Shown in pieces: positions 22,445 to 41,774 of a stretch of 64,000 nt of DNA. How positions within the stretch are numbered: the first letter of the stretch is position 1; every line of letters starts with the position of its first letter. The notes beneath the pieces are model-generated. The model was not told the origin of the DNA, ran no database searches, and worked only from the letters and a program-made list of their open reading frames with translations. Position numbers and translations under genes: made by a program. Source of the DNA: Desulfobulbaceae bacterium (lineage in GTDB: Bacteria > Bacteroidota > Ignavibacteria > Kapaibacteriales > UBA2268); NCBI GenBank assembly GCA_018335795.1, contig JAGXRP010000077.1, positions 124,001 through 188,000 on the forward strand, in the 5' to 3' direction.

Positions 22445-22855
22445 ATGAATTATTGGTTAGTAAAAAGTGACCCTGAAACATATTCAGCTGATGACCTCAA
22501 GAGGGATACTAAGACGAATTGGGACGGGATTAGGAATTATCAGGCTCGAATTAATTTGAACTCTATGAAAAAAGACGACTTGGTTTTGGTTTACCATAGT
22601 CAATCTGATAAAGAAGTTAGGGCAATTGCAAAAGTTAGTAAACAGGCATTTAAAGACACTACTGCAGAAGATGACAGATGGGTAGCAGTCGAGTTGACAT
22701 TCGTAAAAGAATTAGAAAATTATGTAACTTTGGCAATGATTAAGGCTGATAAAATACTGTCCGAAGTTCCTCTAATTAGACATACTCGATTATCTGTGAT
22801 GCCATTAAGTAAAGCAGAATATGAGCGGATTATTGAGTTGTCTCAGTCGAAGTGA
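22445..22855 (+). CDS. EVE-domain protein
   Basis: The 136-residue protein is a complete EVE domain of the Thy28 type: the start YWLVKSDPETYSADDL, then WDGIRNYQARINLNSMKKDD and VYHSQSDKEVRAIAKV. EVE domains belong to the PUA-like superfamily and are thought to bind modified bases in DNA or RNA; the in vivo role in most bacteria is unknown. GGAATC lies close before the ATG. Its last 26 bases overlap the 3' end of the convergent heptosyltransferase-like gene. Confidence 0.92.
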   Translation: MNYWLVKSDPETYSADDLKRDTKTNWDGIRNYQARINLNSMKKDDLVLVYHSQSDKEVRAIAKVSKQAFKDTTAEDDRWVAVELTFVKELENYVTLAMIKADKILSEVPLIRHTRLSVMPLSKAEYERIIELSQSK

Positions 22856-23882
22856 TACTCATCGCAGAGCTTGCTACTTCATCAGCTTTGATTAGATTCA
22901 TACAAGCAAATGTCCCAATGGGACATTTTTTGTTTCCGTGAATTTCGCAGGGCTTACAGTCAAGTTCGATTCGCTCGATTACACTGCTTTGCTCTGAACG
23001 CGGGTAAAATCCAAATAATGGAGATGTGGGCCCGAAAATGGCAACAATAGGGCAATTTACCAAACCTGCAAAGTGAATTGGGGCACTATCATTTGATACG
23101 AGAAATTTTGATTTTGTCATCAGATAAATGGTCTGAGGAATTGTGAAAGTTCCACAAGTATTTATAGCACCACTTTGATGGGATATACTTTCGCAATAAT
23201 CCTTGTCAGATTTTGAGCCGATTATCAGCACTTGAATATTTTGATTCATCAAAATTTCAGCTAAATTTGTAAAGCCGCTTTTAGTCCACTTTTTCGTTTC
23301 CCAAACCGAATTTGGAGCAATCAATGCAATTTGATTGGGCTTCTGCTCAATTAGGTTCAAAAATTGCTCAACATAATTAATGTCATCATTAGAAAAATGA
23401 AGATTGACAACCGGATTATCAAATTCATCAATAATCTCTCCTTTGCCAATACAATTCAAAAAATTCAAGTTTCTTCTAATTTCATGCTCATGAAGTTGAT
23501 ATTTGCATTTTTTGTCAAATAAAAATGACAGTGCAGCAGTGTCATATGAAATTGAAAAATCTGCTTTAGCAAGTTTGGCAATCAATGATGAACGAAATGA
23601 ACGATGCAATGAAATAAACAAATCAAATTCGAAATCTTTTAAAAATTTTCCAAAAGTGAAAGTTTCTTTGAATCCACTATGAGCGTTGCGTTTATCAAAA
23701 ACTATTACTTCATCAATATACGAAACTATTTCGGCGATTGGACTTGCGACTTTGGTTGTTATAAATGTAAGTCGTGAATTGGGATATATACTTTTCAATG
23801 CTTTGCATAATGGCATTGCAAGAGCAACATCGCCAAGGAAAGCGGTTTGCAATACAGCAATATTTTTGAATTGACTATTCAT
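22830..23882 (-). CDS. Glycosyltransferase family 9, LPS heptosyltransferase-like
   Basis: The 350-residue GT-B enzyme of the WaaC/WaaF/WaaQ family transfers heptose, or a related sugar, to the lipopolysaccharide inner core. The N-terminal AVLQTAFLGDVALAMPL is the acceptor-binding start. The C-terminal domain has APNSVWETKKWTKSGF and SNDSAPIHFAGLVNCP followed by AIFGPTSP, typical of nucleotide-sugar binding in GT9. A CKPC...CPIGTFAC cluster precedes the end. It overlaps the acyltransferase gene upstream by 8 bases. Together they suggest lipid A/core assembly. The exact acceptor cannot be assigned. Confidence 0.88.
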   Translation of the reverse strand: MNSQFKNIAVLQTAFLGDVALAMPLCKALKSIYPNSRLTFITTKVASPIAEIVSYIDEVIVFDKRNAHSGFKETFTFGKFLKDFEFDLFISLHRSFRSSLIAKLAKADFSISYDTAALSFLFDKKCKYQLHEHEIRRNLNFLNCIGKGEIIDEFDNPVVNLHFSNDDINYVEQFLNLIEQKPNQIALIAPNSVWETKKWTKSGFTNLAEILMNQNIQVLIIGSKSDKDYCESISHQSGAINTCGTFTIPQTIYLMTKSKFLVSNDSAPIHFAGLVNCPIVAIFGPTSPLFGFYPRSEQSSVIERIELDCKPCEIHGNKKCPIGTFACMNLIKADEVASSAMSITSTETTQ

Positions 23883-24783
23883 TTCCGGAATTTGGCACTT
23901 TATGCTTCCATCTGTTGTGTTGCCATGCCCATAGATGCGGATATTTTCTTATCATATTCTCTAAAATCGCGACATGCCTTTTAGTGAGTTCGGCAATTCC
24001 TTTACTATCATTACTCAAATCATCATGCTTTAATTCGAGCAATTCTACATTGTAAGTAAAATCAGGATTTCTGACAGCAAAACCCATTATAATCGGCACA
24101 TTAAAACGTAATGCTAAAGCCGCAGGAGCCTCGTATGTAACTGCTTTTCTACCCAAAAAATCAATAAAAATATCCTTACTTGCATCTGCACTTTGGTCAA
24201 CAAGCAATGCAACTGCTTCATTGTTTTTAATAGCCTTTATCATGCTCTTTGCAGCTTTGGACATCGGGACAACAGAATTACCATACATGGTTCGATACTC
24301 ATTTAAATGAGCATCTATGTATTTATTTCGTTGTGGTTTAACTATGATTGTAATTGGAATTCCCGAGTAAGCCCCTGCTGTACAAGCCAACATTTCCCAA
24401 TTACCGTAATGCCCCGATAACAAAATCATCCCATTGCCACGTGAGTGGATTTCTTGGAATAAACCTTCATTCTCATATTTCAAATATTTCTTGAAGCCAT
24501 CAATTCTGAGATGAGGAAATGCCAATAATTCTACCATTGTAATTCCGAGATTGTGATATGACCCAATAATAACTTCTTGAATCCTATTTTCTGTAAATTC
24601 CGGAAATGCGGCTTTGATATTATCATAAGTGATTTTTTTTCGGCGCTTAGAAATCATCAATATTCGACCAATGATTTGTCCAAATTTACCCCTTGATTTT
24701 ACATTCATAAATCTTGAAATAAACCCTAAGAACATCATAATAATCAAAGTGCAATAATCAATCATGATATTAAATATCTTCAT
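23875..24783 (-). CDS. Lipid A biosynthesis acyltransferase (LpxL/HtrB family)
   Basis: The 302-residue enzyme has one N-terminal membrane helix and the catalytic signature HYGNWE (H-x4-E, about residue 124). It also has VALLVDQSADASKDIFIDFLG and the C-terminal WAWQHNRWK typical of LpxL/HtrB late acyltransferases. It would add a secondary acyl chain to lipid A at the inner membrane. The start overlaps the stop of the upstream GWxTD gene by one base and the end overlaps the GT9 gene by 8 bases, so the three are translationally coupled. Confidence 0.9.
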   Translation of the reverse strand: MKIFNIMIDYCTLIIMMFLGFISRFMNVKSRGKFGQIIGRILMISKRRKKITYDNIKAAFPEFTENRIQEVIIGSYHNLGITMVELLAFPHLRIDGFKKYLKYENEGLFQEIHSRGNGMILLSGHYGNWEMLACTAGAYSGIPITIIVKPQRNKYIDAHLNEYRTMYGNSVVPMSKAAKSMIKAIKNNEAVALLVDQSADASKDIFIDFLGRKAVTYEAPAALALRFNVPIIMGFAVRNPDFTYNVELLELKHDDLSNDSKGIAELTKRHVAILENMIRKYPHLWAWQHNRWKHKVPNSGNE

Positions 24784-26216
24784 TACCGGACAGGATTTGG
24801 AGTTGGGCTCGCGTCATCTACCTTTATATCTCGAGTTGAAGGAACGTAATCGTTATACCAGCTTTCATTATAGATTTCGCCCCTTGCAGTGGAATGTACT
24901 AATCTAAAATGCCCGTTACCTGCACGGTCAACAAAATAGAATTTAGCTCCGCCTTGAACACCTTCAAACAGCCATTCCTCATAGGAATTATAACCAAAAT
25001 GACCGTCAATTTGTTCTCTACGAGATGGTATTCCGTATTTCAACATTACCTTTCCTCTGTCGGAACTCCAGCCATTTTTTACATACCCTGTATTAAAATA
25101 TGTATTTGCATATTCTTCTCTTCTTCTGAACTCGATGAGAGTTTCGTTTACGTTGGTAGTTGTATCCGAATCACGAATGTACCAAAATCTAAATAAAAAT
25201 CTTTGCTTAGCCTGCAAAGTAGAAAGAGATTCAAATTGTTCCTTTTCGCCGGATTCAGCAATAACAGACGCTTTTTTGAATTCTTCTTCCACTGCAAACT
25301 TGTCCAGAGTAGCAAATTCACTTTTTTGGAACATTTCATTTTCGGTGAAATATATTTTATGAACGGGTGCTTTAGAAGGATTATTTATATAAAATTTCTT
25401 TTCAACTTGTAATGAATCTATTGGCGAATCAATTGGATAAGACATTACAATTTCAAGGTAATAAACACCTGAAGCAACAGTATCTATAGCTAAGTCGAAT
25501 GGAATCATATTTACGCGTTTGTTGTCCTTAATTTCGGTATTATAACTTTTCATACCACGTTTGGCACCATCAAGAATTCGATAACTGATATTGTAACCAT
25601 TTGTTGCAAATTTATCAGCATTATACACTTGGAAAAATCCTTTGATAACATGATTTTCACCAACAAATTCCAAAGCGGAATTTGGGAAAACGTAGTAGTC
25701 CCCACGTAGAAACATTTTATCCCATTCATTTTTTGAGTTATTGGCATTTACTATATCATAAGCAAATACAGGCAAACTCAATTGAACATTGTTAGCATCA
25801 ATTTTATTAACAATAAAAATAATTTCGGTTTCTATGTTTCTTTCATCATTATATACATCAAGTACTTTCAATTTAGCTTTATACTGACCGGGTTGGATTG
25901 GAAATGATTTCCTTCCTAATAAATTCAAAATTTCTTCCTGATTGTCATAATTAACTTGTGAAGATACAATCCATTGTTCAGTCAAAATAGTTTGAGTAGA
26001 GCTATTGATTTCGATATCAAAAAATAATTGACCTGAGAAATATCCCAACTCTTTTTGGTCAATATATGTCAAAATATTATTATTAAAAGAATAAGTTAAC
26101 TCCCAAGTATAATTACCGGAATTATCCATAAAAGATGAATGGTCAATCGCTACAAATAGCGGGTTAGAATAAGCCGCGTAAGAAAGAAAAATTAACAAAA
26201 GCACAATTTTTTTCAT
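24783..26216 (-). CDS. GWxTD-domain secreted protein
   Basis: The 477-residue exported protein starts at ATG 26216 (MKKIVLLLIFLSYAAYS is a clear signal peptide, and CAGG lies 7 bases upstream); a frame 14 codons longer has no support. The middle is beta-rich. The C-terminal domain contains YVKNGWSSDRGKVMLKYG followed by GYNSYEEWLFE, the GWxTD signature with Ser for Thr. It lies between a 13-bp terminator and the acyltransferase gene, which it overlaps by one base. The function of the family is unknown. Association with LPS genes and with PorV upstream points to the cell envelope. Confidence 0.85.
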   Translation of the reverse strand: MKKIVLLLIFLSYAAYSNPLFVAIDHSSFMDNSGNYTWELTYSFNNNILTYIDQKELGYFSGQLFFDIEINSSTQTILTEQWIVSSQVNYDNQEEILNLLGRKSFPIQPGQYKAKLKVLDVYNDERNIETEIIFIVNKIDANNVQLSLPVFAYDIVNANNSKNEWDKMFLRGDYYVFPNSALEFVGENHVIKGFFQVYNADKFATNGYNISYRILDGAKRGMKSYNTEIKDNKRVNMIPFDLAIDTVASGVYYLEIVMSYPIDSPIDSLQVEKKFYINNPSKAPVHKIYFTENEMFQKSEFATLDKFAVEEEFKKASVIAESGEKEQFESLSTLQAKQRFLFRFWYIRDSDTTTNVNETLIEFRRREEYANTYFNTGYVKNGWSSDRGKVMLKYGIPSRREQIDGHFGYNSYEEWLFEGVQGGAKFYFVDRAGNGHFRLVHSTARGEIYNESWYNDYVPSTRDIKVDDASPTPNPVR

Positions 26217-26242
26217 TGTAATACCTGTAATTTTTTTATAAA

Positions 26243-26277
26243 AATTGCCGTTAAGCATAATTTACTTAACGGCAATT
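26243..26277 (-). terminator. Terminator after porV-like gene
   Basis: The perfect 13-bp inverted repeat AATTGCCGTTAAG / CTTAACGGCAATT has a 9-base loop. On the minus strand it is followed by TTTTTAT. It lies 20 bases after the porV-like stop and 27 bases before the GWxTD start, so it should end or attenuate the TonB-receptor operon. Confidence 0.85.
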
Positions 26278-26297: not shown

Positions 26298-27338
26298 TTA
26301 GGAACCAAAGTTCATGGAAACGCTTAATCTGTTTAGTAAACCTAAGTTAACCGTAGGTGTAATTGCATAATCAACTTGACCGCCAAATCCACCACCGAAA
26401 TACTTCAAGCCAACACCGCCGGAGAAACCTAATTGGTCATGACCCATTACGTAACCTGCTCTGAAGGCAAGAAACTCATTCCAAACGTATTCTGCTCCAA
26501 CAGCAAATTGCTCGGGTACGTCAGTCAATGTATTAAAATCAGCAGCTAAACGCAAATGATTTTCACCTGATTTCAAAACATCACCAGAAATTCCGGCACG
26601 GAAAATAATAGGTAAATTATATGGGTAAGCCAAATAAGTCGCATCTAAAGGAGTTGATTGCATGGCGTCATATAATTTTTTAGTAGTTCTCAAATCTTGC
26701 CCATCGTATGCTTGTTGAGTACCAAGATTATGGATAGAGAAGCCTAATTTGATTCCATAATATCCGAAATCGTACATAGTACCAATGTCAAAAGCAACAC
26801 CCGTACTTGATAAAGAAGAAAATGCGTTTTGAACGTATTTAGCTGTAAATCCAAATGCGAATTCGGTTGTCAAGTAACCGGATAAACTGACACCGAGAGC
26901 GATGTCATTAACCTGATAGTTTGAGCCTGTACCATCAGGACGAAACATAGTTGTTATAGGAATATCGCCGCTTGTGAATGATGTAACATGTGCAGCGAAA
27001 GTAAAGTCTTCTGATATAGGCATTGCTAATGCACCGAAATTATGAGAAAATCCGGCGAACCATTGTGAATAAGAGAAATCGGCATTCATTGATTTCATAC
27101 TTGCCAAACCGGCAGGATTCCAATGTATTGACGATAAATCGTTTGCCATAGACGAAAAAGCACCGCCCATTGCATTAGCTCTGGCACCGACACCAATTTT
27201 CAGGAATTGCCCACCTGCTGCACCAACCTTGGATGCTTCGCCTGCAGTTGTACCTTGGTTGATATCACCGACAGCATTAACTTTGGCAACAAAAACAGGC
27301 AACGATAATAATGCTAATATAATTATAATTTTTTTCAT
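26298..27338 (-). CDS. PorV/PorQ-family outer-membrane protein
   Basis: The 346-residue beta-barrel protein has a signal peptide ending near VNAVG. The N-terminus GGQFLKIGVGARANAMGGAF followed by IHWNPAGLAS is the hallmark of the PorV/PorQ (FadL-like) family. PorV carries T9SS cargo from the SprA translocon to the attachment machinery. The barrel ends in NRLSVSMNFGS. It directly follows the 1591-residue secreted protein gene, with a hairpin between them, and ends at a strong terminator. Many paralogues exist in this phylum, so whether it is PorV itself or an operon-dedicated paralogue is open. Confidence 0.85.
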   Translation of the reverse strand: MKKIIIILALLSLPVFVAKVNAVGDINQGTTAGEASKVGAAGGQFLKIGVGARANAMGGAFSSMANDLSSIHWNPAGLASMKSMNADFSYSQWFAGFSHNFGALAMPISEDFTFAAHVTSFTSGDIPITTMFRPDGTGSNYQVNDIALGVSLSGYLTTEFAFGFTAKYVQNAFSSLSSTGVAFDIGTMYDFGYYGIKLGFSIHNLGTQQAYDGQDLRTTKKLYDAMQSTPLDATYLAYPYNLPIIFRAGISGDVLKSGENHLRLAADFNTLTDVPEQFAVGAEYVWNEFLAFRAGYVMGHDQLGFSGGVGLKYFGGGFGGQVDYAITPTVNLGLLNRLSVSMNFGS

Positions 27339-27403: not shown

Positions 27404-30400
27404 TTAGTTTTGTTCAATTATTCTGAATCCACCAACGACAACGCTGAATTTCTTCACTGTTTGAGCTCCGTTAGGAGTAGTAATAACAGCAACGAAAGTT
27501 TGGCTCTGTACGCGTTGTAAATTGCTTGACAGCAAATCCCAAACTTGAACAGCATTTCTTGTTTCGTCACCTTCGTTCTTGTATTCGTCGTGTTCGATTG
27601 TATTTACTAAATCTCCGGCTACGGTATAAATCTCAATTGTGCAACGTGGAGGTAATTTAGTAAAGTAGATTTTCGAATCGTATGGTGATTTGACACCTTC
27701 GTGCGAAATATAGTATGGATTCGGAACAACACTAACTTGGTCTAATTGACCATCAGTATATTGTTCGTTAACTGGAGCACTTTTTCCTACTTTAGCAATT
27801 ACAGTAGCGCCCGGCATTGGTAATCCCAAAGCACCGCCATAAGTTCTTAAGTATATCTTATCACCCGGTTTGAAATCAACCGAAGTCCAGATATTATAGT
27901 TAGCTTGTGATTTACGAGCCCATTCTTCACCTGATTGGTTTGTTCTACCTTTGTTTGCAAAATCTAAAGCAAATTGAACACCACTAATATTTACAATATG
28001 AGTGAAGTCTAATGTATCAGCTCCATTAACAGAAACAGCAGACTTATAATACCTGCCTAAACCATTATCACTTTGTTGAGGCAATCCTGAAAATGATTTA
28101 ACATTGCCACTTAAAATACCTGATTTAGGTCGGGCAATTTGATTAGGAATTGTCAAACCTGAAGCTTGTTCTCTTTTAAGTGAAGAATTAGCAATCCATC
28201 CATAAGCATGAATATTGTATTTGCCGATAAAATCATTTGTTGATTGTCCGTAATATGCTAAATTAGCAGGATTTGGATAAAGAATGTTTTCATTCCAAAT
28301 ATCGTTATATTCATTGCTTCCGGTAAAATTATAACCATATTTAGTTTTGCTTTGTACAGGTTGAATAGCTAAGTGTTTCACTTCATCAGGAAAATCAACT
28401 ATCACAGAATCAGAACCGGCTGCAGGTCTTTTGAAGTCAATAATATTTTTGACTTTCACATCCAAATATTCAATGTTGAAACTATTTGAAGCTGCTCCGT
28501 TTTGCCAAGCTAATTCTTGATTGATGGCACCACCGGCTAAGAATTCAACTTCATAAATACCTGGTCCATTATTGAAACTTCCATATTCAATACTATGAGT
28601 ATTGAAATTAATTCCCACCGGCATGGTTCTCTGTACAATCGCTTGTGAAGGTTGTTTGATATATGAACTTAAGTTATCATCAGTTTTAAAATTGACTGGT
28701 GTATTTGCATTTACCCCTGGCCCATAAGCAGTTGACAATGTCAAAGAATCCGGGCGGAAGCGACCAGCATATTGACTGATTGTAAAGTCAAAACTGAATC
28801 CCATTATGCCGTAAGCATTTGAAGCCCAGTTATTAGTGTAGCAATAATTGGGATAGGTGAAATCACCTGAAGAAAATCTTCCGGTTCTTGTTTTGATTCC
28901 TTTTGCAGTTCTCAATCCAAAGTCCATATATGTGCCAGTTGATGGTTCATAAACTGCAGTATCGGACAATACATAAGATGCTGAATTTTCAGTAAAAAAT
29001 TCATAAAAGCTCAAATTACATGGTTGTGATTCGTAACTTGCAAAACCTCTATACAAGGTATCGCCTGTATTTTTGCTCCAAAGAGTTATTAAATTACGAT
29101 ATAAGCCAAATTCAGTTCTGGCTGTTGGAGCTTTAGAATCAAATGCAATACTTGTTAAAAACCAATATGGTTCAAATTTAAGTATAAGTTCATCACCTTC
29201 AAATCTTTGTATCAATCTATCATTATCCACAGCAAAGAATCTGAAATTATATAAGCCACCTATCAAATTCGAATCAACATGTATGACTTGAATAGAAGGC
29301 ATGTCGCCAGAAGGAGCGGCAGAAGGAAATGTTTTAACCATATTAGTCAAACCGAGTGCTGAAGTATTCAATTTAGAAGGAGTTGGTTGTTGATAATCAC
29401 CTTCATCATAGGCTAATACTTTATAGTAATAGTCTATATTGTTTATCAACTTTTCAGTTTTAGTCGGGTCAGCATCCGGATTGATATATCCATCACGATT
29501 ATCATCGCCGACATCAAAGAAAGTTCGATTATTGGTGATTCTTGCCATATAAGGACTAATTACATCACTTCTAACTTCTAAACTTTGTTCAAATTCAGGA
29601 AAATCAATTTTGACTAAACCTAATTTTATATAATCATAAAGAATATCTAAAGCTTGATTCACATGGTTCGAATCGTTCATTATTGTGCCAGCCGAACGAG
29701 GTACCCAAATATCAATTATTCTTTGTGGCGACCCGTTAATTTCAGCTAATCTCTCAGTTTCTTTTAACCATATAGCATCAGTAGTCAATCTTTCGATAAC
29801 TGAATCCTTAAGTTTTTCATCCCAAACTCTTCTCCATTGTCCGGCAACTCCGTCTGGAAATAAATTAAATACACTATCAATTTCTTGACGTGTTTTACTG
29901 AATGTTTTGCGGGTAAAAAATAACGGATTAAATTTAACTAAAGCTCTATCAAAATAAGCAATTCCTACAAAAATTGAGTCAAATAATTCAGTTCTGACAT
30001 TCGGGTCATAAGTTAAAAGTCTTGGACCTTGCGGTGATACTCTAAAAACTTGACCTGTTTCATCAAAACCAATATTCGGGTCACGAGCAATTACTTTAGC
30101 CCAATGTTTGCCCCAAGGGTCTCTGAAAGAAGATGTATCTAAACCACTTAGAACGGGAGCAATACTTCCTTGGTTGTTACGAGATGCTGCAGAATCAGAT
30201 AAAGTCAAAAATCCATTTCCAATTCTCATAACTCTGATTGCCATCGAATCTACAATAGCACCACTTGCATCGGTATATGGACCAACAATGCGTATATCAT
30301 CAATCAATGGCATAGACATATCTGATTCGTCTATTCCGCCTCTAAATTGAGATTTGTAGAATGGAGTACGTAACCTAAATTCAGCTATTTGTTTCCAGCC

Positions 30401-32179
30401 GAATGGACCTAAACCACTTGGGTAGTTACCCGCAGGTGGTACAGGAACTGTAAAAAATGAATCAAGGTTAGTTCTACGGGCACGATAAATTTTATAACCC
30501 ATAAAATCTAATCCTTTTTCATAAATATCATAAGACATTTCAGATGTATTATCCCACTGAATTCTTACTGCATGGTTTAGTCCTTGCCAATTTGTAACAA
30601 TTGCGCGGTCAGGCGGAGTAGGAGCGCGGAAGTTATTATCATAAACTTCTTGGGCAAAAATATTTTTTCGTTCTAAGTCTTGCATATCTTCACAAGTACC
30701 ATCGGCATCAACACCTTTGGTAGAATTTGCTAAAATCATACCGACTACCGTCCTTACTGTATCACCGGGACGCATATGGAAAGGTCCGGATGCCATTAAG
30801 AATCGCTTATCGCCGGGAGCATCATCACCATCTTGTTGACCGGTTGATATGAAATTATATCTTTCATCATCTTCTAATCTATCATCATCAATGGGCCAGT
30901 TACGAAATGTTACGAGACCAAGTTGTTCTTCATTGCTGAACACAATTTTGTCTTTTCTTACAAATTGAGGTGCGTCAGGACCATGTAAATCAGGATTATA
31001 CTCATTTGGTCCAATAGGGGTGATAATTGTATCTATTCTAATAATATTTCCTGCATCATCACGGATTTCATTAAATGTTGTATCATTTATTACAACTACG
31101 GCAGGAGATTCCAAGAAGTCAAAACCGAGATAGCCAAAACCTTGACCGGCTTCACCCCTGTCAGCATTTGACCATTGAACTGCCATATTTAAAGATTCGT
31201 TACAATCATAATATTTAGCTCTGTCATTACCGGCACCAAAACTAGTAGCAGGGGCTCGAGCAATATCAACATCTTGAATTGGAGCCAACCAACAATTCCA
31301 CAAAGTATCAGGAGAATAGTTTGTCATTTCATACTTTATAAAGATAAAATCTTTATAATCTCCAAATCCCCATGAATAAATCATTTGGTCAATTTGAAGA
31401 CGAAGCGGATAACCTCTTTCACGTCTTGAGGCAACACCACCTTCATATCTGCTTAAATCAGTATCCTTATATGTTGCGAATATATCTTCACCTGAAATAA
31501 AGGCGGGTCCTCTTGGATGAGTTGCCGTATTTCTAAGTTCAGTTTGTGGTATAAAATATCCGAAATATCTGTTTGTTTTAAGGGTGTCTTCTACATTTTT
31601 GGAAGCATCCCATATGGGCCAATAATACTGATGATCCGGATTAACGGGTTCGCCAGAACTTGGTATAAAATCGGTAGAAAAGTAAGTTCTGTATTTCAAA
31701 ACATCCGTTGGGTCAACAGCATCAATATTTGGGAATTCAGTGCTATTAGGACCACCATAATTTATACGTCCGGGGACATACCAGCCTCTACCTGAATTTG
31801 GATTATATGTAATTGATACATATCTGGTTCTTAATGTATCAGTTGGATTTCTGAATTTTTCAACACCAATCCAAAGCCCACCGGCAAAGATATATTGATT
31901 TAGAGAGCCACGAGGCCAATACCCACCCCCAATACCTCTTGCGACATCGAATCCAAATATACCATAATTGGTTGTATAAAATTGGATGTTACTTATTGAG
32001 TTTTGTTGCAAATCATATACATTATTAAATGTTCTTGCTTGCAATTGCTCTTGTTCGTTTTCCTTACCATCAGTATTTTTACCTGTATGAATCGTTGCGG
32101 CATTTATTTCAAATGAACCGATAACGAATACAATGGCAAGCAAGGTTAAGAAAAACCTCATAGATTTTCTGTTAAACAT
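27404..32179 (-). CDS. Giant secreted protein with FlgD/T9SS-like C-terminal domain
   Basis: The 1591-residue exported protein starts at ATG 32179, chosen because AGAGGT lies just upstream and a hydrophobic signal (SMRFFLTLLAIVFVIGSF) follows; the frame extends 11 codons further without support. Most of the sequence is beta-rich with many Tyr/Asn/Asp-rich turns. DDNRDGYINPDAD near 920 resembles a calcium-binding loop. The last about 110 residues have VVPNPYY and IEIYTVAGDLVNTIEH, then a terminal strand FSVVVGG, an Ig-like FlgD/T9SS sorting-type domain. It lies 50 bases after the TonB receptor stop and before PorV. Role unknown; probably surface-exposed cargo. Confidence 0.85.
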   Translation of the reverse strand: MFNRKSMRFFLTLLAIVFVIGSFEINAATIHTGKNTDGKENEQEQLQARTFNNVYDLQQNSISNIQFYTTNYGIFGFDVARGIGGGYWPRGSLNQYIFAGGLWIGVEKFRNPTDTLRTRYVSITYNPNSGRGWYVPGRINYGGPNSTEFPNIDAVDPTDVLKYRTYFSTDFIPSSGEPVNPDHQYYWPIWDASKNVEDTLKTNRYFGYFIPQTELRNTATHPRGPAFISGEDIFATYKDTDLSRYEGGVASRRERGYPLRLQIDQMIYSWGFGDYKDFIFIKYEMTNYSPDTLWNCWLAPIQDVDIARAPATSFGAGNDRAKYYDCNESLNMAVQWSNADRGEAGQGFGYLGFDFLESPAVVVINDTTFNEIRDDAGNIIRIDTIITPIGPNEYNPDLHGPDAPQFVRKDKIVFSNEEQLGLVTFRNWPIDDDRLEDDERYNFISTGQQDGDDAPGDKRFLMASGPFHMRPGDTVRTVVGMILANSTKGVDADGTCEDMQDLERKNIFAQEVYDNNFRAPTPPDRAIVTNWQGLNHAVRIQWDNTSEMSYDIYEKGLDFMGYKIYRARRTNLDSFFTVPVPPAGNYPSGLGPFGWKQIAEFRLRTPFYKSQFRGGIDESDMSMPLIDDIRIVGPYTDASGAIVDSMAIRVMRIGNGFLTLSDSAASRNNQGSIAPVLSGLDTSSFRDPWGKHWAKVIARDPNIGFDETGQVFRVSPQGPRLLTYDPNVRTELFDSIFVGIAYFDRALVKFNPLFFTRKTFSKTRQEIDSVFNLFPDGVAGQWRRVWDEKLKDSVIERLTTDAIWLKETERLAEINGSPQRIIDIWVPRSAGTIMNDSNHVNQALDILYDYIKLGLVKIDFPEFEQSLEVRSDVISPYMARITNNRTFFDVGDDNRDGYINPDADPTKTEKLINNIDYYYKVLAYDEGDYQQPTPSKLNTSALGLTNMVKTFPSAAPSGDMPSIQVIHVDSNLIGGLYNFRFFAVDNDRLIQRFEGDELILKFEPYWFLTSIAFDSKAPTARTEFGLYRNLITLWSKNTGDTLYRGFASYESQPCNLSFYEFFTENSASYVLSDTAVYEPSTGTYMDFGLRTAKGIKTRTGRFSSGDFTYPNYCYTNNWASNAYGIMGFSFDFTISQYAGRFRPDSLTLSTAYGPGVNANTPVNFKTDDNLSSYIKQPSQAIVQRTMPVGINFNTHSIEYGSFNNGPGIYEVEFLAGGAINQELAWQNGAASNSFNIEYLDVKVKNIIDFKRPAAGSDSVIVDFPDEVKHLAIQPVQSKTKYGYNFTGSNEYNDIWNENILYPNPANLAYYGQSTNDFIGKYNIHAYGWIANSSLKREQASGLTIPNQIARPKSGILSGNVKSFSGLPQQSDNGLGRYYKSAVSVNGADTLDFTHIVNISGVQFALDFANKGRTNQSGEEWARKSQANYNIWTSVDFKPGDKIYLRTYGGALGLPMPGATVIAKVGKSAPVNEQYTDGQLDQVSVVPNPYYISHEGVKSPYDSKIYFTKLPPRCTIEIYTVAGDLVNTIEHDEYKNEGDETRNAVQVWDLLSSNLQRVQSQTFVAVITTPNGAQTVKKFSVVVGGFRIIEQN

Positions 32180-32229
32180 TATTACCTCTAATTTTTCATT
32201 AATAATTTTCATTTTATCTGTCCCCTATC

Positions 32230-35200
32230 TTAAAATCTAAACATCATACCGATGTTTATAGTTCTGGGTGCTTGGAAATTGCCACGGAAAGCAATAGTTG
32301 TTGCTACATATCTAAAATAACTTTCGTAAGTTTCTGCTTGGGTTACAATTCCGTTGCCGTCAAAATCCGCCACTGAATTATATCTTCTGTTACCATAAAA
32401 GTCATATTGAACCGAAGCATAAGTTGCAGGGTTTGCTATATCAGGGTCTTTATAATAAGCAGTGTTAGCAAAGTCACCAACTTGGCGGTCGAAAGTTCTG
32501 CCATCATCAATCGGGTCACCTGTAGCAGCGTAAACACCAAGTGCTTGAGATAAATTAAGTATATTATTGATATTTGCAAATATTTCAATTTCTGAATTTC
32601 CTGCCCCATCACCAAATATATCACTCATACGGAATGATTTCGCAATTCTGGCATCAAGTAACCATCTTGAAGGCTGTCTTTCAGAGTTACGTTCCGCAAT
32701 TGCAGTTCCTGAACGGTCTGTACGAGTATAAGGTGTTCCTGTTCTATAAATACCGGTAAATATCAAATTTGTATTTTCGAGTAACTTAATACCACCAATA
32801 GATGGTCCTTCGTTATCTCGCCAGTAAACTCTGAAGTTTGATTTTGCATAATGTCTAATATCTTGTCCCATAGGATATTCAGAAAGTGGGAATGCCGGTT
32901 TGTCTGTATATGGGTCAATGATAACATTGTAGTTTGAAGATGCAGTTTGTGCAGTACCTGTTACCCAAGCCAATGTATAGTTTAAATCAAATGAAAAATT
33001 ATCTTTTGCCATTTTTTCGAGTGTAAATTCAATCCCTCTAGAACTTCCATAGTCAGATACCGTATATTGGTAGTATGGTTCGGGTACAGCATTGACTCGC
33101 ATTAGACCTAATTGGTTGTAAATATCTTTGTAGTAAGCAACTGATGTAAACGCAAATACTTCTGTTAGTTGTTGGCTGTATGCAATTTCGTATTGATTAG
33201 TTCTCTGAGCATCCATATTTGGATTCCCAATAATTGAATTACCGCGTAAGATGTCCGCCGCAAAATTGTCATACATATATTGAAGCTGAGGCATTTGGAA
33301 GAACATACCATAAGAAAGTCTCAAGAATGACATATCAGTAATAGGATATGAAATATTAATTCTCGGACTCACTTGTATTTTTGCGGAAGTCACAGCAAAT
33401 CCTGTATCAGAGCTTATAGGTATCCATGAATTAGAAGGTAGTCTATAATCAGAATTCGGATTGAAATAATCAAGTCTTAAACCTGCACTCATTCTGATAC
33501 CTTTGAAAGATATTTGGTCATTAAAGTAAATGCCAAATTTTGTTGGCTTATAAGGTTTGTTCGTTTTCTCGCGTACAACTTCATTATCAGCATATAAATT
33601 ACCACCCCATCTACCATCTGTATAAACATCAAAGAATGGATTTCCATCATACGGATTTCCATTAGAATGTCTGTGTAATTCAAATAATGTCAAAAGGAAT
33701 CCTGTCTTAAAAGTATGGTCGAATTCGCCTGTTTTGAATATTTGAGTATAGCTACCATCGAAGGTCCACCAATTGCCATCTCTGAAACTAAAAGAACCGC
33801 CACCAGATGTGGGGAATAGTCCTACTAAACCATAAGGGTTGTAAGTTCCTGAAGCATTTGAATTTCCTTCAAAGTAGCCTGATATGGGGTTTCTTTGAGG
33901 AATATCTGCACGTGTAAAACCATCCTTGGTATAACCAATATTCGAAAGGAATGTATAGTGGTCAATAATTTTATCTTGACCGAGTACTAAATTGTTGTTT
34001 TCAACTTTATAATCGTCAGTTGGCTCCCATACTTCAAATCCTGAGAAGAAACCCGGATCCTCCCAACCAACTCTTCTTGAACTTACGTCATTATTTGATG
34101 CATTACCTATTCTAAGCTCATAAAAGCTCTTAGATGTCAATGTATGATTAATCAATATATTGAAGCCATTTACAAATTGGTCAAGTACATTTTGACGTAC
34201 TATTCTTTCCGGAATACCATTCGTTACAGGGGAGCCATCTTCGTTAGTTTTGAGTATGAAGCTGCCATCAGCTGTTTTATCGTAAACATGACCTTCTTGA
34301 TTGGCATACATCCATCCCCAACCTGAGAATTCAAAGCTTGAAATGCCATAATTACCACTAACTTGAATTGTCATATCATTGGGCAGTGTAAATCTTACGT
34401 TACCGCGAATATCACGAACCCATGATTGATTATCGGGACGTTGCCCAATATTTGTTCCCCAAGGGTCAAATATTTTATATGTATTATCGCGGTGGTTTTC
34501 ATGAAAGTAATTACCTGTCAAATAAAATGTAGCGTTTTTGAAGAATTCCATGTCATTCAAAACCGGAATAGGACCACCTGTACCAAACTCAAAAGTATTT
34601 TGTTGGCTACCTTGAAATTGAGCACCCTCACCGGCTTCGACTGCCTTAAGACGAGTACCTTCGCGAATGACTTGTAAGCCGGTAGGTTGACTTCCATATA
34701 GTGCAGGAACATCAGTCAACCAACGAATAAAACCATCGTAACGGTCATCTCTTCCTCGACGAACGATTGTATTAACAACACCTGAAGATACATCACCATA
34801 TTCAGCTGTAAAACCGCCGGTAATAACTTGAACTTCTTCGGTTGCATAGTTTGATACCATAGGATAATAACCTGAACCCGATACGCCAAATCCACCTGTG
34901 AATTGGTTGCCTACGTCTATACCGTCAACTTTGATTTGAGTTTCTTCAGTACGACCACCACGGATCATAAATCCGCCACCACTTTGGAGTACACCTGATG
35001 TCATAGCGACAACACCAGACAGACCTTCACGTGCGATATTTTGAATTTCGGCTCCTGACATAATTTTCTTGGTGCCGCCTTCGTCATCAACATTCACCAT
35101 AGATTGAGCAGTAACTGTGACTGTCTCTGTAGTTACTCCGCCTTTTTCATCTTTCATTACAACTTCAACTGTTGATGTTTTGTCTGCGGAAATTCTAACA

Positions 35201-35460
35201 ATTTGCCTTACAGTCTGTTTACCGACAAAGGTAAATCTTAATGTATATTCGGCTGCCTCAATATTTACGATGGTAAAGCTACCGTCGTTTTCTCTAACTA
35301 CTGTGCCTTTGGCTGTTCCTTCCAAAAATACTGTAGCACCTCTCAATCCCTTACCTTCTTCATCTACTACTTTACCCCGTAAAACACCGTATATACTGGC
35401 ATAAGACATTGCAGGCAAAATAATCAATCCTAAGAAAATAAGTAAAAATAACTTACGCAT
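32230..35460 (-). CDS. TonB-dependent receptor with carboxypeptidase-like N-terminal domain
   Basis: The 1076-residue outer-membrane receptor has a signal peptide (1-21), a carboxypeptidase D regulatory-like domain (about 23-108, starting GVLRGKVVDEEGKGLRGATV), a plug domain with GGGFMIRGGRTEETQIKVDG, and a large barrel ending in Phe (NIGMMFRF). No SusD partner is next to it. AAAGGAG lies 7 bases before the ATG. It follows the sigma/anti-sigma pair by 248 bases and leads the unit TonB receptor - giant secreted protein - PorV. The ligand is unknown. Confidence 0.92.
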   Translation of the reverse strand: MRKLFLLIFLGLIILPAMSYASIYGVLRGKVVDEEGKGLRGATVFLEGTAKGTVVRENDGSFTIVNIEAAEYTLRFTFVGKQTVRQIVRISADKTSTVEVVMKDEKGGVTTETVTVTAQSMVNVDDEGGTKKIMSGAEIQNIAREGLSGVVAMTSGVLQSGGGFMIRGGRTEETQIKVDGIDVGNQFTGGFGVSGSGYYPMVSNYATEEVQVITGGFTAEYGDVSSGVVNTIVRRGRDDRYDGFIRWLTDVPALYGSQPTGLQVIREGTRLKAVEAGEGAQFQGSQQNTFEFGTGGPIPVLNDMEFFKNATFYLTGNYFHENHRDNTYKIFDPWGTNIGQRPDNQSWVRDIRGNVRFTLPNDMTIQVSGNYGISSFEFSGWGWMYANQEGHVYDKTADGSFILKTNEDGSPVTNGIPERIVRQNVLDQFVNGFNILINHTLTSKSFYELRIGNASNNDVSSRRVGWEDPGFFSGFEVWEPTDDYKVENNNLVLGQDKIIDHYTFLSNIGYTKDGFTRADIPQRNPISGYFEGNSNASGTYNPYGLVGLFPTSGGGSFSFRDGNWWTFDGSYTQIFKTGEFDHTFKTGFLLTLFELHRHSNGNPYDGNPFFDVYTDGRWGGNLYADNEVVREKTNKPYKPTKFGIYFNDQISFKGIRMSAGLRLDYFNPNSDYRLPSNSWIPISSDTGFAVTSAKIQVSPRINISYPITDMSFLRLSYGMFFQMPQLQYMYDNFAADILRGNSIIGNPNMDAQRTNQYEIAYSQQLTEVFAFTSVAYYKDIYNQLGLMRVNAVPEPYYQYTVSDYGSSRGIEFTLEKMAKDNFSFDLNYTLAWVTGTAQTASSNYNVIIDPYTDKPAFPLSEYPMGQDIRHYAKSNFRVYWRDNEGPSIGGIKLLENTNLIFTGIYRTGTPYTRTDRSGTAIAERNSERQPSRWLLDARIAKSFRMSDIFGDGAGNSEIEIFANINNILNLSQALGVYAATGDPIDDGRTFDRQVGDFANTAYYKDPDIANPATYASVQYDFYGNRRYNSVADFDGNGIVTQAETYESYFRYVATTIAFRGNFQAPRTINIGMMFRF

Positions 35461-35708: not shown

Positions 35709-37019
35709 TTAAAACTTAAGTCTGATTCCATAAACAACAGAACTGCTTGAACGCATTGCTCTATTGAATTGCGAATTTGGCAAATCATTGATAAACAAGC
35801 GTCCTTCAGTTCCAATCGTCAATGAGAGATAGCTAAGTAGGTCATATTGAGCATACACTCTCCCGAATCCCAAAGGACCTTCGTTCGAGCCACCTAATCC
35901 TAATCTCCCGACAATCACAAAATCATCATATTTTATAAAAGAATAATCTATAAACGCTGTTCCCCAAATGAATTGTCTTACTGTTTCTATTTCAACCGGG
36001 ACAATAACATGATTTTCACCGGTCCCGGTTGGTACCTGAACAGATGGTCCATTGGGATTTTCGATATTTGCCGGGATGTAGATATTTTGTCTTCTGTCGT
36101 ATGTGAATTCAGTTATTCCAAATTCGATTCCGAATCCAAGTCTATCTGTTGCTGAGTACGAGATGCTTTGAGAAATATTCAGAATAGGTGAATTTCCGCT
36201 TGTTTTGAAACCGGAATGTGAAAAATCATAAGACATGAAAGTATGTAATTGTACACCGGCTAAGCCCATAAATGGTTCGGCAAAATATGTCGTCGGTAAA
36301 TTTGTGACGACATTATAATTCGAATGAGGCATTTGAACAGTTCCACCATCAGGGAGATTATTCAGCAAATTCTTAGATTTGTCTGATTGTATGATGCTTT
36401 TTTCAGTTAATATGATTTCTTGCATTAAATCCGACGATGTGTTGTCCGGTATCGTTGCAACAGTTGTTTCATTTTCTGTTAAATTGTCCTGTTTTATATT
36501 ATCAACAGCAATTTCGGAAACTTCATATTCATCATTCGATACGATCTGCGAAACGGATTCAGATTTCAATTCTAATGGTTTCGAGGTCTTGTTAGCAGCT
36601 AGTTCAGTAAATAAAATATTATCGGAATCAACCGATACAGCATTGCTATTTTGCAAAAAAGCGATTGCACGAGGCGAATTTTGTTCGCTTATTTTCATAA
36701 CACCGGAAATCATGAAGGCAACCAATACTACGGCAGCGGCTGAGTATTGATACCATTTGGAAGACATCTTTGTGATTTGAGCAGATGCGGGCTGTGTAGC
36801 CATAATATTCATTAATATTTTGTCTTCTGTATCACGCAAAAGTTTTTCAGGAACGCGGATAGAAGCGGCGTCCTGTTTTAATTGATGGTGAACGTCAATT
36901 GCCGAATCAAATTTTGATTTGGAATGAACATTGTCCCGAAGCACATCCCTCAATTGAAGGTCTTCGGTGGGTGATAATTCACTATCAATATACTTCGATA
37001 TTAAAATTTCAAGACTCAT
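35709..37019 (-). CDS. Anti-sigma factor fused to a C-terminal outer-membrane barrel (Dma-like)
   Basis: The 436-residue protein opens with an anti-sigma-like helical region, MSLEILISKYIDSELSPTED (1-85). One membrane helix follows at about 92-108 (SAAAVVLVAFMISGVMK). Residues 111-246 are Ser/Asn/Thr/Glu-rich and look disordered. Residues 247-436 alternate polar and hydrophobic residues, for example GFGIEFGITEFTYD and FIWGTAFIDYSFI. They end in Phe (VVYGIRLKF), as outer-membrane beta-barrels do. The layout matches the double-membrane-spanning anti-sigma factors described in Bacteroides. It overlaps the ECF sigma gene by 11 bases and precedes the TonB-receptor operon. It could sense the outer membrane directly. 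The barrel assignment is inferred from pattern alone. Confidence 0.8.
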   Translation of the reverse strand: MSLEILISKYIDSELSPTEDLQLRDVLRDNVHSKSKFDSAIDVHHQLKQDAASIRVPEKLLRDTEDKILMNIMATQPASAQITKMSSKWYQYSAAAVVLVAFMISGVMKISEQNSPRAIAFLQNSNAVSVDSDNILFTELAANKTSKPLELKSESVSQIVSNDEYEVSEIAVDNIKQDNLTENETTVATIPDNTSSDLMQEIILTEKSIIQSDKSKNLLNNLPDGGTVQMPHSNYNVVTNLPTTYFAEPFMGLAGVQLHTFMSYDFSHSGFKTSGNSPILNISQSISYSATDRLGFGIEFGITEFTYDRRQNIYIPANIENPNGPSVQVPTGTGENHVIVPVEIETVRQFIWGTAFIDYSFIKYDDFVIVGRLGLGGSNEGPLGFGRVYAQYDLLSYLSLTIGTEGRLFINDLPNSQFNRAMRSSSSVVYGIRLKF

Positions 37020-37569
37020 TTATTTCCTTAACCAATGGTTGAAGTAGTTTTCTTAATATAATTCTGGCTCTGTACACTCTTATTTTAGCCAGTGAAAGTT
37101 CGATTTGTAAAATGTCTGCGATTTCTTGATAAGTACATTCCTCATATTCACGCAATATTACGGCTTCTCTCAGAGGAACGGGTAACATTTGCATTGCTTT
37201 ATCAATTTGGTCTTTCAATCCAATGTCTTGATTTGAAGTTCTGTCCGGTTGATGGAAAGTCTCATCGTATGATTCATGTTCTTTTTTCTGACGTAAATAG
37301 TTGTAGCAAGTGTTTCGAGCTATAGTAAAAAGCCAAGCAGAGAAATTCTGTCCATTAAAAGCATCACGTTTTTCATAAATTCTCACAAAAGTTTCTTGGA
37401 AAGCATCTTCAGCTAAAATTTCATCTCCAAGCATTTTCACACAGTATCGGTAAACTTTAGGTGCATAGTTCTGATATAGCAAGTGGAATGCTTCTGCACT
37501 GCCATGATTGAGCGCCTTAGTGGCGTTCTGAAGTTCGTCTTCTGCTATATTTTTTTTCTTAAATAACAT
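37009..37569 (-). CDS. ECF-family RNA polymerase sigma factor
   Basis: The 186-residue sigma-70 family protein has region 2 at about 25-95 (AEDAFQETFVRIYEKRDAF, FSAWLFTIARNTCYNYLR) and region 4 at about 125-180 (LPVPLREAVILREYEECTY, QEIADILQIELSLAKIRVYR). The size is typical of ECF factors. The 3' end overlaps the anti-sigma gene by 11 bases, the usual arrangement for a cognate pair. Likely targets are its own operon and the TonB-receptor operon downstream. In the 195 bases upstream I see no Bacteroidota housekeeping promoter; there is a short palindrome TTTCATGAAA. Confidence 0.93.
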   Translation of the reverse strand: MLFKKKNIAEDELQNATKALNHGSAEAFHLLYQNYAPKVYRYCVKMLGDEILAEDAFQETFVRIYEKRDAFNGQNFSAWLFTIARNTCYNYLRQKKEHESYDETFHQPDRTSNQDIGLKDQIDKAMQMLPVPLREAVILREYEECTYQEIADILQIELSLAKIRVYRARIILRKLLQPLVKEINES

Positions 37570-37763
37570 TTTTCAAAATTGTCAACCTTAACTAATACTT
37601 GAAACACAGTAATTGTCCAAAAAGTTACAAATTTTTTTCATTTTCATGAAATTTCTTTAACTTATTTTTCTATATTCTCAAAAAAATCATCATAAAGTTA
37701 TATTTATTATACATTTAGTTCAAAATTAAGCTATCTGAGTGAGATAACAAAATTTCAAGTAAT

Positions 37764-41726: not shown

Positions 41727-41749
41727 AGGGGACAAACGAATGCCCCCCT
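41727..41749 (-). terminator. Weak terminator-like hairpin between hpf and hprK
   Basis: AGGGG / CCCCT form a 5-bp GC-rich stem, followed on the minus strand by TTATTGTTT. It may attenuate transcription from hpf into hprK. Confidence 0.35.
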
Positions 41750-41774
41750 ATGTTACAAAAATACAAAAAACAAA

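Follow-up and report, generated by a model that had tools for sequence, protein, structure and literature searches.

How might the state of the outer membrane be passed to a cytoplasmic sigma factor by a single protein chain? The question is raised by a pair of genes in the window, the name used here for the whole stretch of 64,000 nucleotides that was analysed and to which all coordinates refer. The gene pair, its encoded domains, its promoter and the downstream genes described below all lie on the (-) strand. The first gene (37009..37569) encodes an ECF sigma factor of 186 residues with matches to Pfam Sigma70_r2 and Sigma70_r4_2, both above cut-off. The second (35709..37019, ATG start) encodes a protein of 436 residues which, from its ORF, its homologues and an AlphaFold2 model, is predicted to be a double-membrane-spanning anti-sigma factor. 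The two ORFs overlap by 11 bases, so that the pairing of a 436-residue chain with an overlapping ECF sigma gene, as described in the original prediction, is confirmed by the ORFs and by Pfam. The longer protein itself has no significant match in Pfam or NCBIfam, and a sequence-profile search of the PDB gave nothing meaningful (best E 0.11). The sigma gene lies immediately upstream of the anti-sigma gene in 29 of 30 loci of a first set and in all 34 of a second. The exception in the first set is L022, although the same place, compared again as region L145, does show a sigma match; L002 (E 0.034) was left out of that count.

Predicted architecture of the 436-residue protein

The full-chain AlphaFold2 run, structure prediction being the check that had been proposed for this protein, used a 34-row alignment and gave a mean pLDDT of 68.6. 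It contains anti-sigma helices, a membrane helix, a disordered tether and a barrel, the relative placing of which is not predicted by the model given its pTM of 0.45. The N-terminal part contains four helices (residues 3–11, 17–29, 31–53 and 58–75), and residues 1–75 (36795..37019) are assigned as a putative class I type anti-sigma domain from a domain-only model and its fold matches. Modelled alone, this domain again forms four helices (3–11, 17–29, 31–52 and 58–74), with a mean pLDDT of 87.4. Foldseek gives no match for it at E 0.001 (best E 0.18); the top seven entries are RsiW, MucA and ChrR, and 10 of the 19 rows with E<=10 are anti-sigma factors (RsiW, MucA, ChrR, RslA, RseA). Alignment to RsiW with VIA-align gives a Z score of 7.4 over 68 residues at 3.0 Å, which is middling for a small helical domain. 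The anti-sigma-like helical N-terminus that had been read from the sequence thus reappears as a four-helix domain whose nearest solved folds are anti-sigma factors, through weak matches.

A fourth helix is part of the description of the class I anti-sigma domain (ASDI). In the available portion of one account the ASDI is a three-helix bundle with an optional zinc motif (PMC7406223). With its modelled helix bundle and fourth helix the N-terminal domain is predicted to be an ASDI, its binding to the sigma factor being putative. The zf-HC2 family is matched at E<=0.1 by 17 of 34 family members, the window protein not among them, and cysteine is absent from its 436 residues.

The domain is followed by a single helix, predicted to lie in the inner membrane with its N-terminal side in, which the model places at residues 87–106 (36702..36761). 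One membrane helix had indeed been expected, but at residues 92–108, and that position did not hold. The topology was compared over 41 distinct family sequences (62 with identical ones merged, the window included; L064 and L030 were dropped as truncated at the ends of their contigs). Lysine and arginine in the 15 residues flanking the helix are more numerous on the N-terminal than on the C-terminal side in 38 of the 41, fewer in two and equal in one; in L014/L053 a membrane helix is not clearly recognisable where one would be expected.

Residues 108–252 (36264..36698) are predicted to form a disordered periplasmic tether, from low pLDDT and from the lengths found in the family; pLDDT is below 50 at residues 77–86, 108–240 and 244–252. 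The linker had been described as rich in Ser, Asn, Thr and Glu, which is correct (39.3% against 25.1% in the remainder of the protein), and as 135 residues long, where 145 were counted. An extended chain spans approximately 0.36 nm per residue and the periplasm 20–30 nm; 145 residues would therefore reach approximately 50 nm, sufficient to cross it. Across the 41 sequences the distance from the membrane helix to the first strand is 118–251 residues (median 156), and identity to the window protein has a median of 12.8% in the tether, 42.5% in the anti-sigma domain and 28.0% in the barrel. Relative to two genes of the same genus, the membrane helix and the barrel have the lowest dN/dS (barrel 0.06–0.08); the ratio is 0.11–0.15 in the anti-sigma domain and reaches its highest values in the linker (0.27–0.32).

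The C-terminal residues 256–436 (35712..36254), ending in YGIRLKF, are modelled as an eight-stranded outer-membrane barrel (strands 256–269, 280–289, 294–316, 337–364, 367–378, 382–393, 398–412 and 420–435). The pLDDT of the barrel is mostly 86–97, falling to 56–70 in a loop around residues 311–340. VIA-align superimposes it on OprF with a Z score of 18.0 (2.3 Å, 120 residues), followed by a designed transmembrane barrel (17.8), a Legionella porin (16.9), NspA (16.8) and OmpA (16.3). The alternating strands and terminal Phe noted at the outset therefore correspond to a modelled barrel whose last residue is Phe. The last residue of the 41 sequences is F in 23, L in 12, Y in three, M in one and D in two, and G431 is conserved in 40. 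A soluble C-terminal domain, one of the two outcomes held to speak against the original prediction, was rejected on the modelling of residues 256–436 as a transmembrane barrel with Z scores of 16–18 to OprF/OmpA-like barrels. The other, homologues lacking the terminal Phe and strand pattern, was likewise not what was found, 39 of the 41 ending in F, L, Y or M. By prediction, the 436-residue protein is a double-membrane-spanning anti-sigma factor with its C-terminal end located in the outer membrane.

Family, paralogues and relation to Dma

A single-sequence query at E<=0.01 was matched in 40 of 60 genomes, more than chance would give; these include the window's own genome, both other members of the genus and 25 of the 33 other members of the family; there was no match in the remaining 20, eight of them from the same family. 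A profile scan of genome contigs gave 34 loci, with contig titles of Ignavibacteriae, Ignavibacteria, Kapaibacterium, Bacteroidetes, plain bacterium and one Bradyrhizobiaceae. This last contig (L063) carries the gene cluster described below and is probably misbinned. Kapaibacterium is placed within Bacteroidota in the NCBI taxonomy. Across 395 genomes of the phylum, whole-profile matches come from the window's own order only, and elsewhere the matches are partial and mostly to the anti-sigma part. Outside the window's own family, nine of 13 regions fetched from the order, class and phylum (L118, L119, L124–L130) show a similar plan, as judged by length, membrane helix, protein end and sigma neighbour. 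In L120 and L121 (genomes G347 and G143) an anti-sigma-like start and a membrane helix are followed by degenerate short repeats (e.g. SPSFSRLMA), with no barrel.

The window's own genome has 22 Sigma70_r4_2 matches, from which 19 regions were fetched after leaving out the match in the window itself and two very short frames; two of the 19 (L078, L086) are cut by contig ends. In seven of these the sigma gene is followed by a gene for a protein of 393–433 residues, read as having the same plan. The window pair brings this to eight of 20 sigma genes, and the arrangement may therefore be a main mode of envelope signalling in the group. Profiles of the seven paralogues match that of the window family at 99.3% over the full chain (E 2e-20), 97.6% for the anti-sigma part and 97.5% for the barrel. 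In six of the seven pairs (L070, L076, L077, L079, L082, L087) the next gene has a signal-peptide or lipoprotein start, and in one of these it contains DUF4397. This recurrence bears on the suggestion that the protein is invariably cleaved on its way through the periplasm, such that one gene would supply an ordinary anti-sigma factor and a separate small barrel with no signalling between them. A disordered, fast-changing linker would suit such processing, but across genera the barrel is kept and remains fused to the anti-sigma part, through a tether never shorter than 118 residues, and the same plan is found in the seven further pairs; constant cutting is considered improbable.

The known proteins closest in plan are the Dma anti-sigma factors, which in the available text of PMC13088901 are described solely in Bacteroidota. 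Dma2 there comprises an anti-sigma domain, a membrane helix, a long disordered tether and a barrel, and adjoins a putative ECF21 sigma gene (PMC13088901). For comparison a set of Dma1-like proteins was used, named for their plan and NigD neighbour and not for identity with Bacteroides thetaiotaomicron Dma1. A NigD_C search supplied a pair of sigma factor and long protein beside NigD in three of ten regions fetched (L264, L265, L269), and a query with Dma1-like proteins, in a set also holding L123, found matches in 78 of the 395 genomes and none in the window's own genome. The Dma1-like N-terminal part is approximately 40–55 residues before the membrane helix, compared with approximately 85 in the window family, and the Dma1-like barrels match OMP_b-brl families in Pfam, which the window barrel does not.

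The original prediction had placed the window protein in a distant branch of this family, and it is conceivable that it is a Dma protein whose sequence has drifted almost past recognition. The shared four-part plan and the shared phylum would agree with such drift, as would two partial profile matches: the full-chain profile of the window family against that of 26 Dma1-like proteins gives 64.5% over 54 columns, covering helix 4 and the membrane helix, and the barrels of the own-genome paralogues against Dma1-like barrels give 70.7% over 46 columns. The second of these would allow for a distant common descent of the barrels. Against this, the window family and the 26 Dma1-like profiles score 3.8% for barrel versus barrel and 2.5% for the N-terminal parts, and the OMP_b-brl match is confined to the Dma1-like side of the comparison. 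The sigma partners also separate. The tree used the sigma ORFs found upstream of 24 of the 26 Dma1-like proteins; as these had been collected with a Dma1-like query, it covers partners of that type and not those of Dma2- and Dma3-like proteins. All 24 Dma1-like partners fall in one clade (support 0.999), outside which lies the window sigma factor, and all 35 window-type partners in another (0.736); the partner of the paralogue L087 is outside the main group. Membership of Dma by sequence is thus unsupported for the window family, the profile matches being short and partial and the sigma clades separate. The placing in a distant branch was not borne out, and descent from Dma by drift appears unlikely.

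Gene cluster, promoter and predicted regulon

The gene after the anti-sigma gene (32230..35460) encodes a TonB-dependent receptor with CarboxypepD_reg and Plug domains, both above the Pfam cut-off. Such a receptor is found downstream in 28 of 34 loci when 6 kb flanks are searched, and in the remaining six less than 2 kb of contig is left. Pfam at E<=0.01 lists CarboxypepD_reg-type, Plug and barrel domains for it and no STN domain; within its own genome the receptor has one full-length match and ten partial ones. Next are a large protein of 1602 residues (27404..32212), read as exported, which has no Pfam or NCBIfam match at E<=0.01, and a PorV/PorQ family protein (26298..27338; NF033709, 174.3 bits against a cut-off of 90). 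Receptor, large protein and PorV/PorQ protein are collinear in 17 of 20 relatives, compared over regions of at most 20 kb, the three without the cluster being L144, L145 and L150; L141 has a scattered receptor match. The cluster continues with a GWxTD-domain protein (24783..26258; TIGR04514, 64.9 bits against a cut-off of 28), present in 13 of the 20 regions, and two further genes (22830..24783). The first of these (23875–24783, 13 of 20 regions) we take by eye to encode an LpxL-like acyltransferase and the second (22830–23882, 12 of 20) a GT9-like glycosyltransferase. In 10 of the 20 regions an additional gene lies in between, the product of which ends in a type IX secretion tail and matches BNR weakly. 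A literature search on GWxTD/PorV found nothing on the cluster.

Two further observations concern the locus. The genes for SOD, a DsbD-like protein, HPr kinase and HPF were rejected as part of the unit because they are neighbours only in L032 among the 34 loci, some of which begin beyond the point where these genes would lie. Measured against L032, synonymous divergence is low in the sigma gene (37009–37569; 0.40) and in the first 60 codons of the anti-sigma gene (36840–37019; 0.35) and of the receptor gene (35281–35460; 0.28), compared with approximately 0.75 over the whole anti-sigma and whole receptor genes.

A candidate autoregulated ECF promoter, TGTAAC-N17-TGTT, is found by motif match upstream of the sigma gene (37603..37629). 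An unsupervised search for pairs of 4-mers in the regions preceding 33 sigma genes (300 bp at most) gave TAAC-N17-TGTC in 27; these regions come from related species and are hence non-independent, and in six shuffles this pair was absent and no 4-mer pair exceeded 14. The window promoter is outside the 27, with T for C in its -10 part, and the same TGTT is found in L032 and L052. The strict form TGTAAC-N16-18-TGTC is present in 28 of 35 upstream regions, where L047 (16 bases) and L055 and L063 (which seem to start in coding sequence) were scored as misses. Across 15 genomes TGTAACTT-N15-TGTCTW has 50 matches compared with four for the reversed pattern, G026 having none. A looser pattern in the window's own genome showed no enrichment by count (25 against 24 for the reversed control), and the case for the promoter in this genome rests on seven intergenic copies of TGTAACTTT, situated 34–130 bp upstream of genes. 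Two of these genes encode ECF sigma factors, one being that of the window, and the other five encode signal-peptide proteins. TGTAAC-N17-TGTT thus also precedes the second ECF sigma gene (L159/L081, G000:C23:33170). This suggests that the two sigma factors act in a cascade or share their regulon, some of whose genes may therefore belong to the other sigma factor. A TGTAAC-N17-TGTC match at 41731–41757, 30 bp ahead of the HPr kinase gene, may be due to chance.

The genes that would be controlled were surveyed by fetching 47 sites, of which three were dropped (L220 and L235, read as prmC-like coding sequence; L245, no ORF). The resulting 44 first genes, 39 from relatives and five from the window's own genome, include L247, which was kept despite lying inside a longer frame; of the 50 strict matches, eight belong to promoters of the sigma genes themselves and stand outside this set. 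At Pfam E<=0.001, Por_Secre_tail is found in 26 of the 44, ExbD in four and TonB_C in two, and most of the remainder have a signal-peptide start by a simple hydropathy rule. The 44 form 27 groups, eight of which are common to more than one genome. The window's own genome has at least 150 Por_Secre_tail places (150 scored of 220 candidates), so the tail is common; at 1 gene in 20 or so, as estimated from the size of the genome, its presence in 26 of 44 predicted target genes is still a strong excess. Promoter and gene neighbourhood together suggest an involvement in type IX secretion cargo and the TonB system. Nothing pointing to vesiculation, which the original prediction had mentioned for the Bacteroides proteins, was found.

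Proposed mechanism and comparison with known systems

Taken together, we consider it probable that the protein is an envelope-crossing anti-sigma factor in which the state of the barrel gates the sigma factor for its own operon and for a type IX cargo regulon. The computation supports this through the fold, the signs of topology, the coupling of the genes, the autoregulatory promoter, the cluster and the content of the regulon. In such a mechanism the N-terminal class I type domain would hold the ECF sigma factor encoded just upstream, the single helix would anchor the anti-sigma factor in the inner membrane, and the disordered tether would cross the periplasm to a barrel sitting in the outer membrane. 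We infer that the domain inhibits this particular sigma factor and that both ends of the chain are in place simultaneously. The trigger would be a change at the outer membrane, either a partner on the barrel, whether ligand, cargo or receptor, or a failure of barrel assembly; both this signal and its transfer across the periplasm are put forward as inferred steps. The tether would then be changed or cut and the sigma factor freed, to drive the operon that encodes it and a limited number of other genes carrying a TGTAAC-N17-TGTC promoter, mostly type IX secretion cargo and in some species also ExbD or TonB. Release of the sigma factor on a change at the outer membrane would mean that production of surface proteins follows the state of that membrane. 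The architecture and a direct path from outer membrane to sigma factor, as originally proposed, are well supported by prediction and comparison.

The trigger could be narrower. In RseA/DegS/RseP signalling, periplasmic and intramembrane proteases cut an exposed chain, and the barrel here may similarly be a test substrate of the outer-membrane assembly machinery, hidden when assembly works and, when assembly fails, leading to cutting of the chain and release of the sigma factor; the tether need not then carry force. The conserved C-terminal end, which resembles a β-signal and retains G431 in nearly all members, would be consistent with such a sentinel of folding, as would an anti-sigma fold resembling RsiW, MucA and RseA and a tether free in sequence but kept in length. 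The families of the predicted regulon do not fit it as well, being secretion cargo and TonB/ExbD, with no chaperone or BAM family among the 25 listed of 36, and we regard it as a possible but less probable account. Under the preferred reading, gating by the state of the barrel, the cell would have a direct route by which to match surface-protein production to outer-membrane export.

The four-part plan recurs here with another kind of anti-sigma domain and another sigma clade, and the promoter and gene list suggest a purpose for the switch; the question of what is sensed thereby becomes testable. More tentatively, these features may mark another lineage of double-membrane-spanning anti-sigma factors, put together separately in bacteria of Kapaibacterium/Ignavibacteria type, with a class I type domain and a barrel not recognisably that of Dma. 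The core member of this second lineage would read the state of secretion at the outer membrane and set the supply of type IX cargo and TonB energy to match. If so, cargo synthesis would be coupled to export without a separate receptor. The partial match of the paralogue barrels to Dma1-like barrels weakens this proposal.

In working plan the 436-residue protein, as modelled, resembles Bacteroides Dma, with which it shares a predicted anti-sigma domain, one membrane helix, a disordered tether, a C-terminal barrel and an adjacent ECF sigma gene (PMC13088901, available portion). The paralogue pairs with their signal-peptide or lipoprotein gene likewise recall the three-gene dma2 operon described there. 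The Dma1-like proteins differ in their shorter N-terminal part, OMP_b-brl barrel and sigma clade. The phenotypes reported for Dma concern vesicles and glycan loci, and the 2026 paper on Dma2 hypothesises a currently unknown glycan as the sensed signal (PMC13088901, available portion), whereas a regulon of secretion cargo is predicted for the window family. The papers found in a literature search on such anti-sigma factors all concern Bacteroides.

The class I anti-sigma factors RsiW, RseA, MucA and ChrR share with the window protein a helical cytoplasmic domain, and half of the window family shows a weak zf-HC2 match; unlike theirs, the window chain continues into a barrel, and it has no Cys. 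To our knowledge, the known class I anti-sigma factors have not been described with an outer-membrane barrel. In FecIRA, the genes for a sigma factor, an anti-sigma factor and a TonB-dependent receptor lie together and the outer membrane controls the sigma factor. The same three kinds of gene lie together in the window, but its receptor has no STN match and its anti-sigma factor carries a barrel of its own, and cell-surface signalling of the FecR type was accordingly rejected on the absence of an STN domain in Pfam at E<=0.01.

Literature searched on anti-sigma factors, type IX secretion and ECF sigma factors, in the portions available, describes no anti-sigma factor of this plan. ECF sigma factors have been tied to type IX secretion in SigP-PorXY of Porphyromonas gingivalis and at the SM6 promoters of Flavobacterium psychrophilum (PMC7712824, PMC9723704, PMC4800418, PMC8265659), and this is what the window system has in common with them. 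In the available portions of those papers the control described is over genes of the secretion machinery, in P. gingivalis through a two-component system. In the window system, by comparison, the gene for an anti-sigma factor with a predicted outer-membrane anchor adjoins the sigma gene, and the candidate promoter stands before cargo genes.
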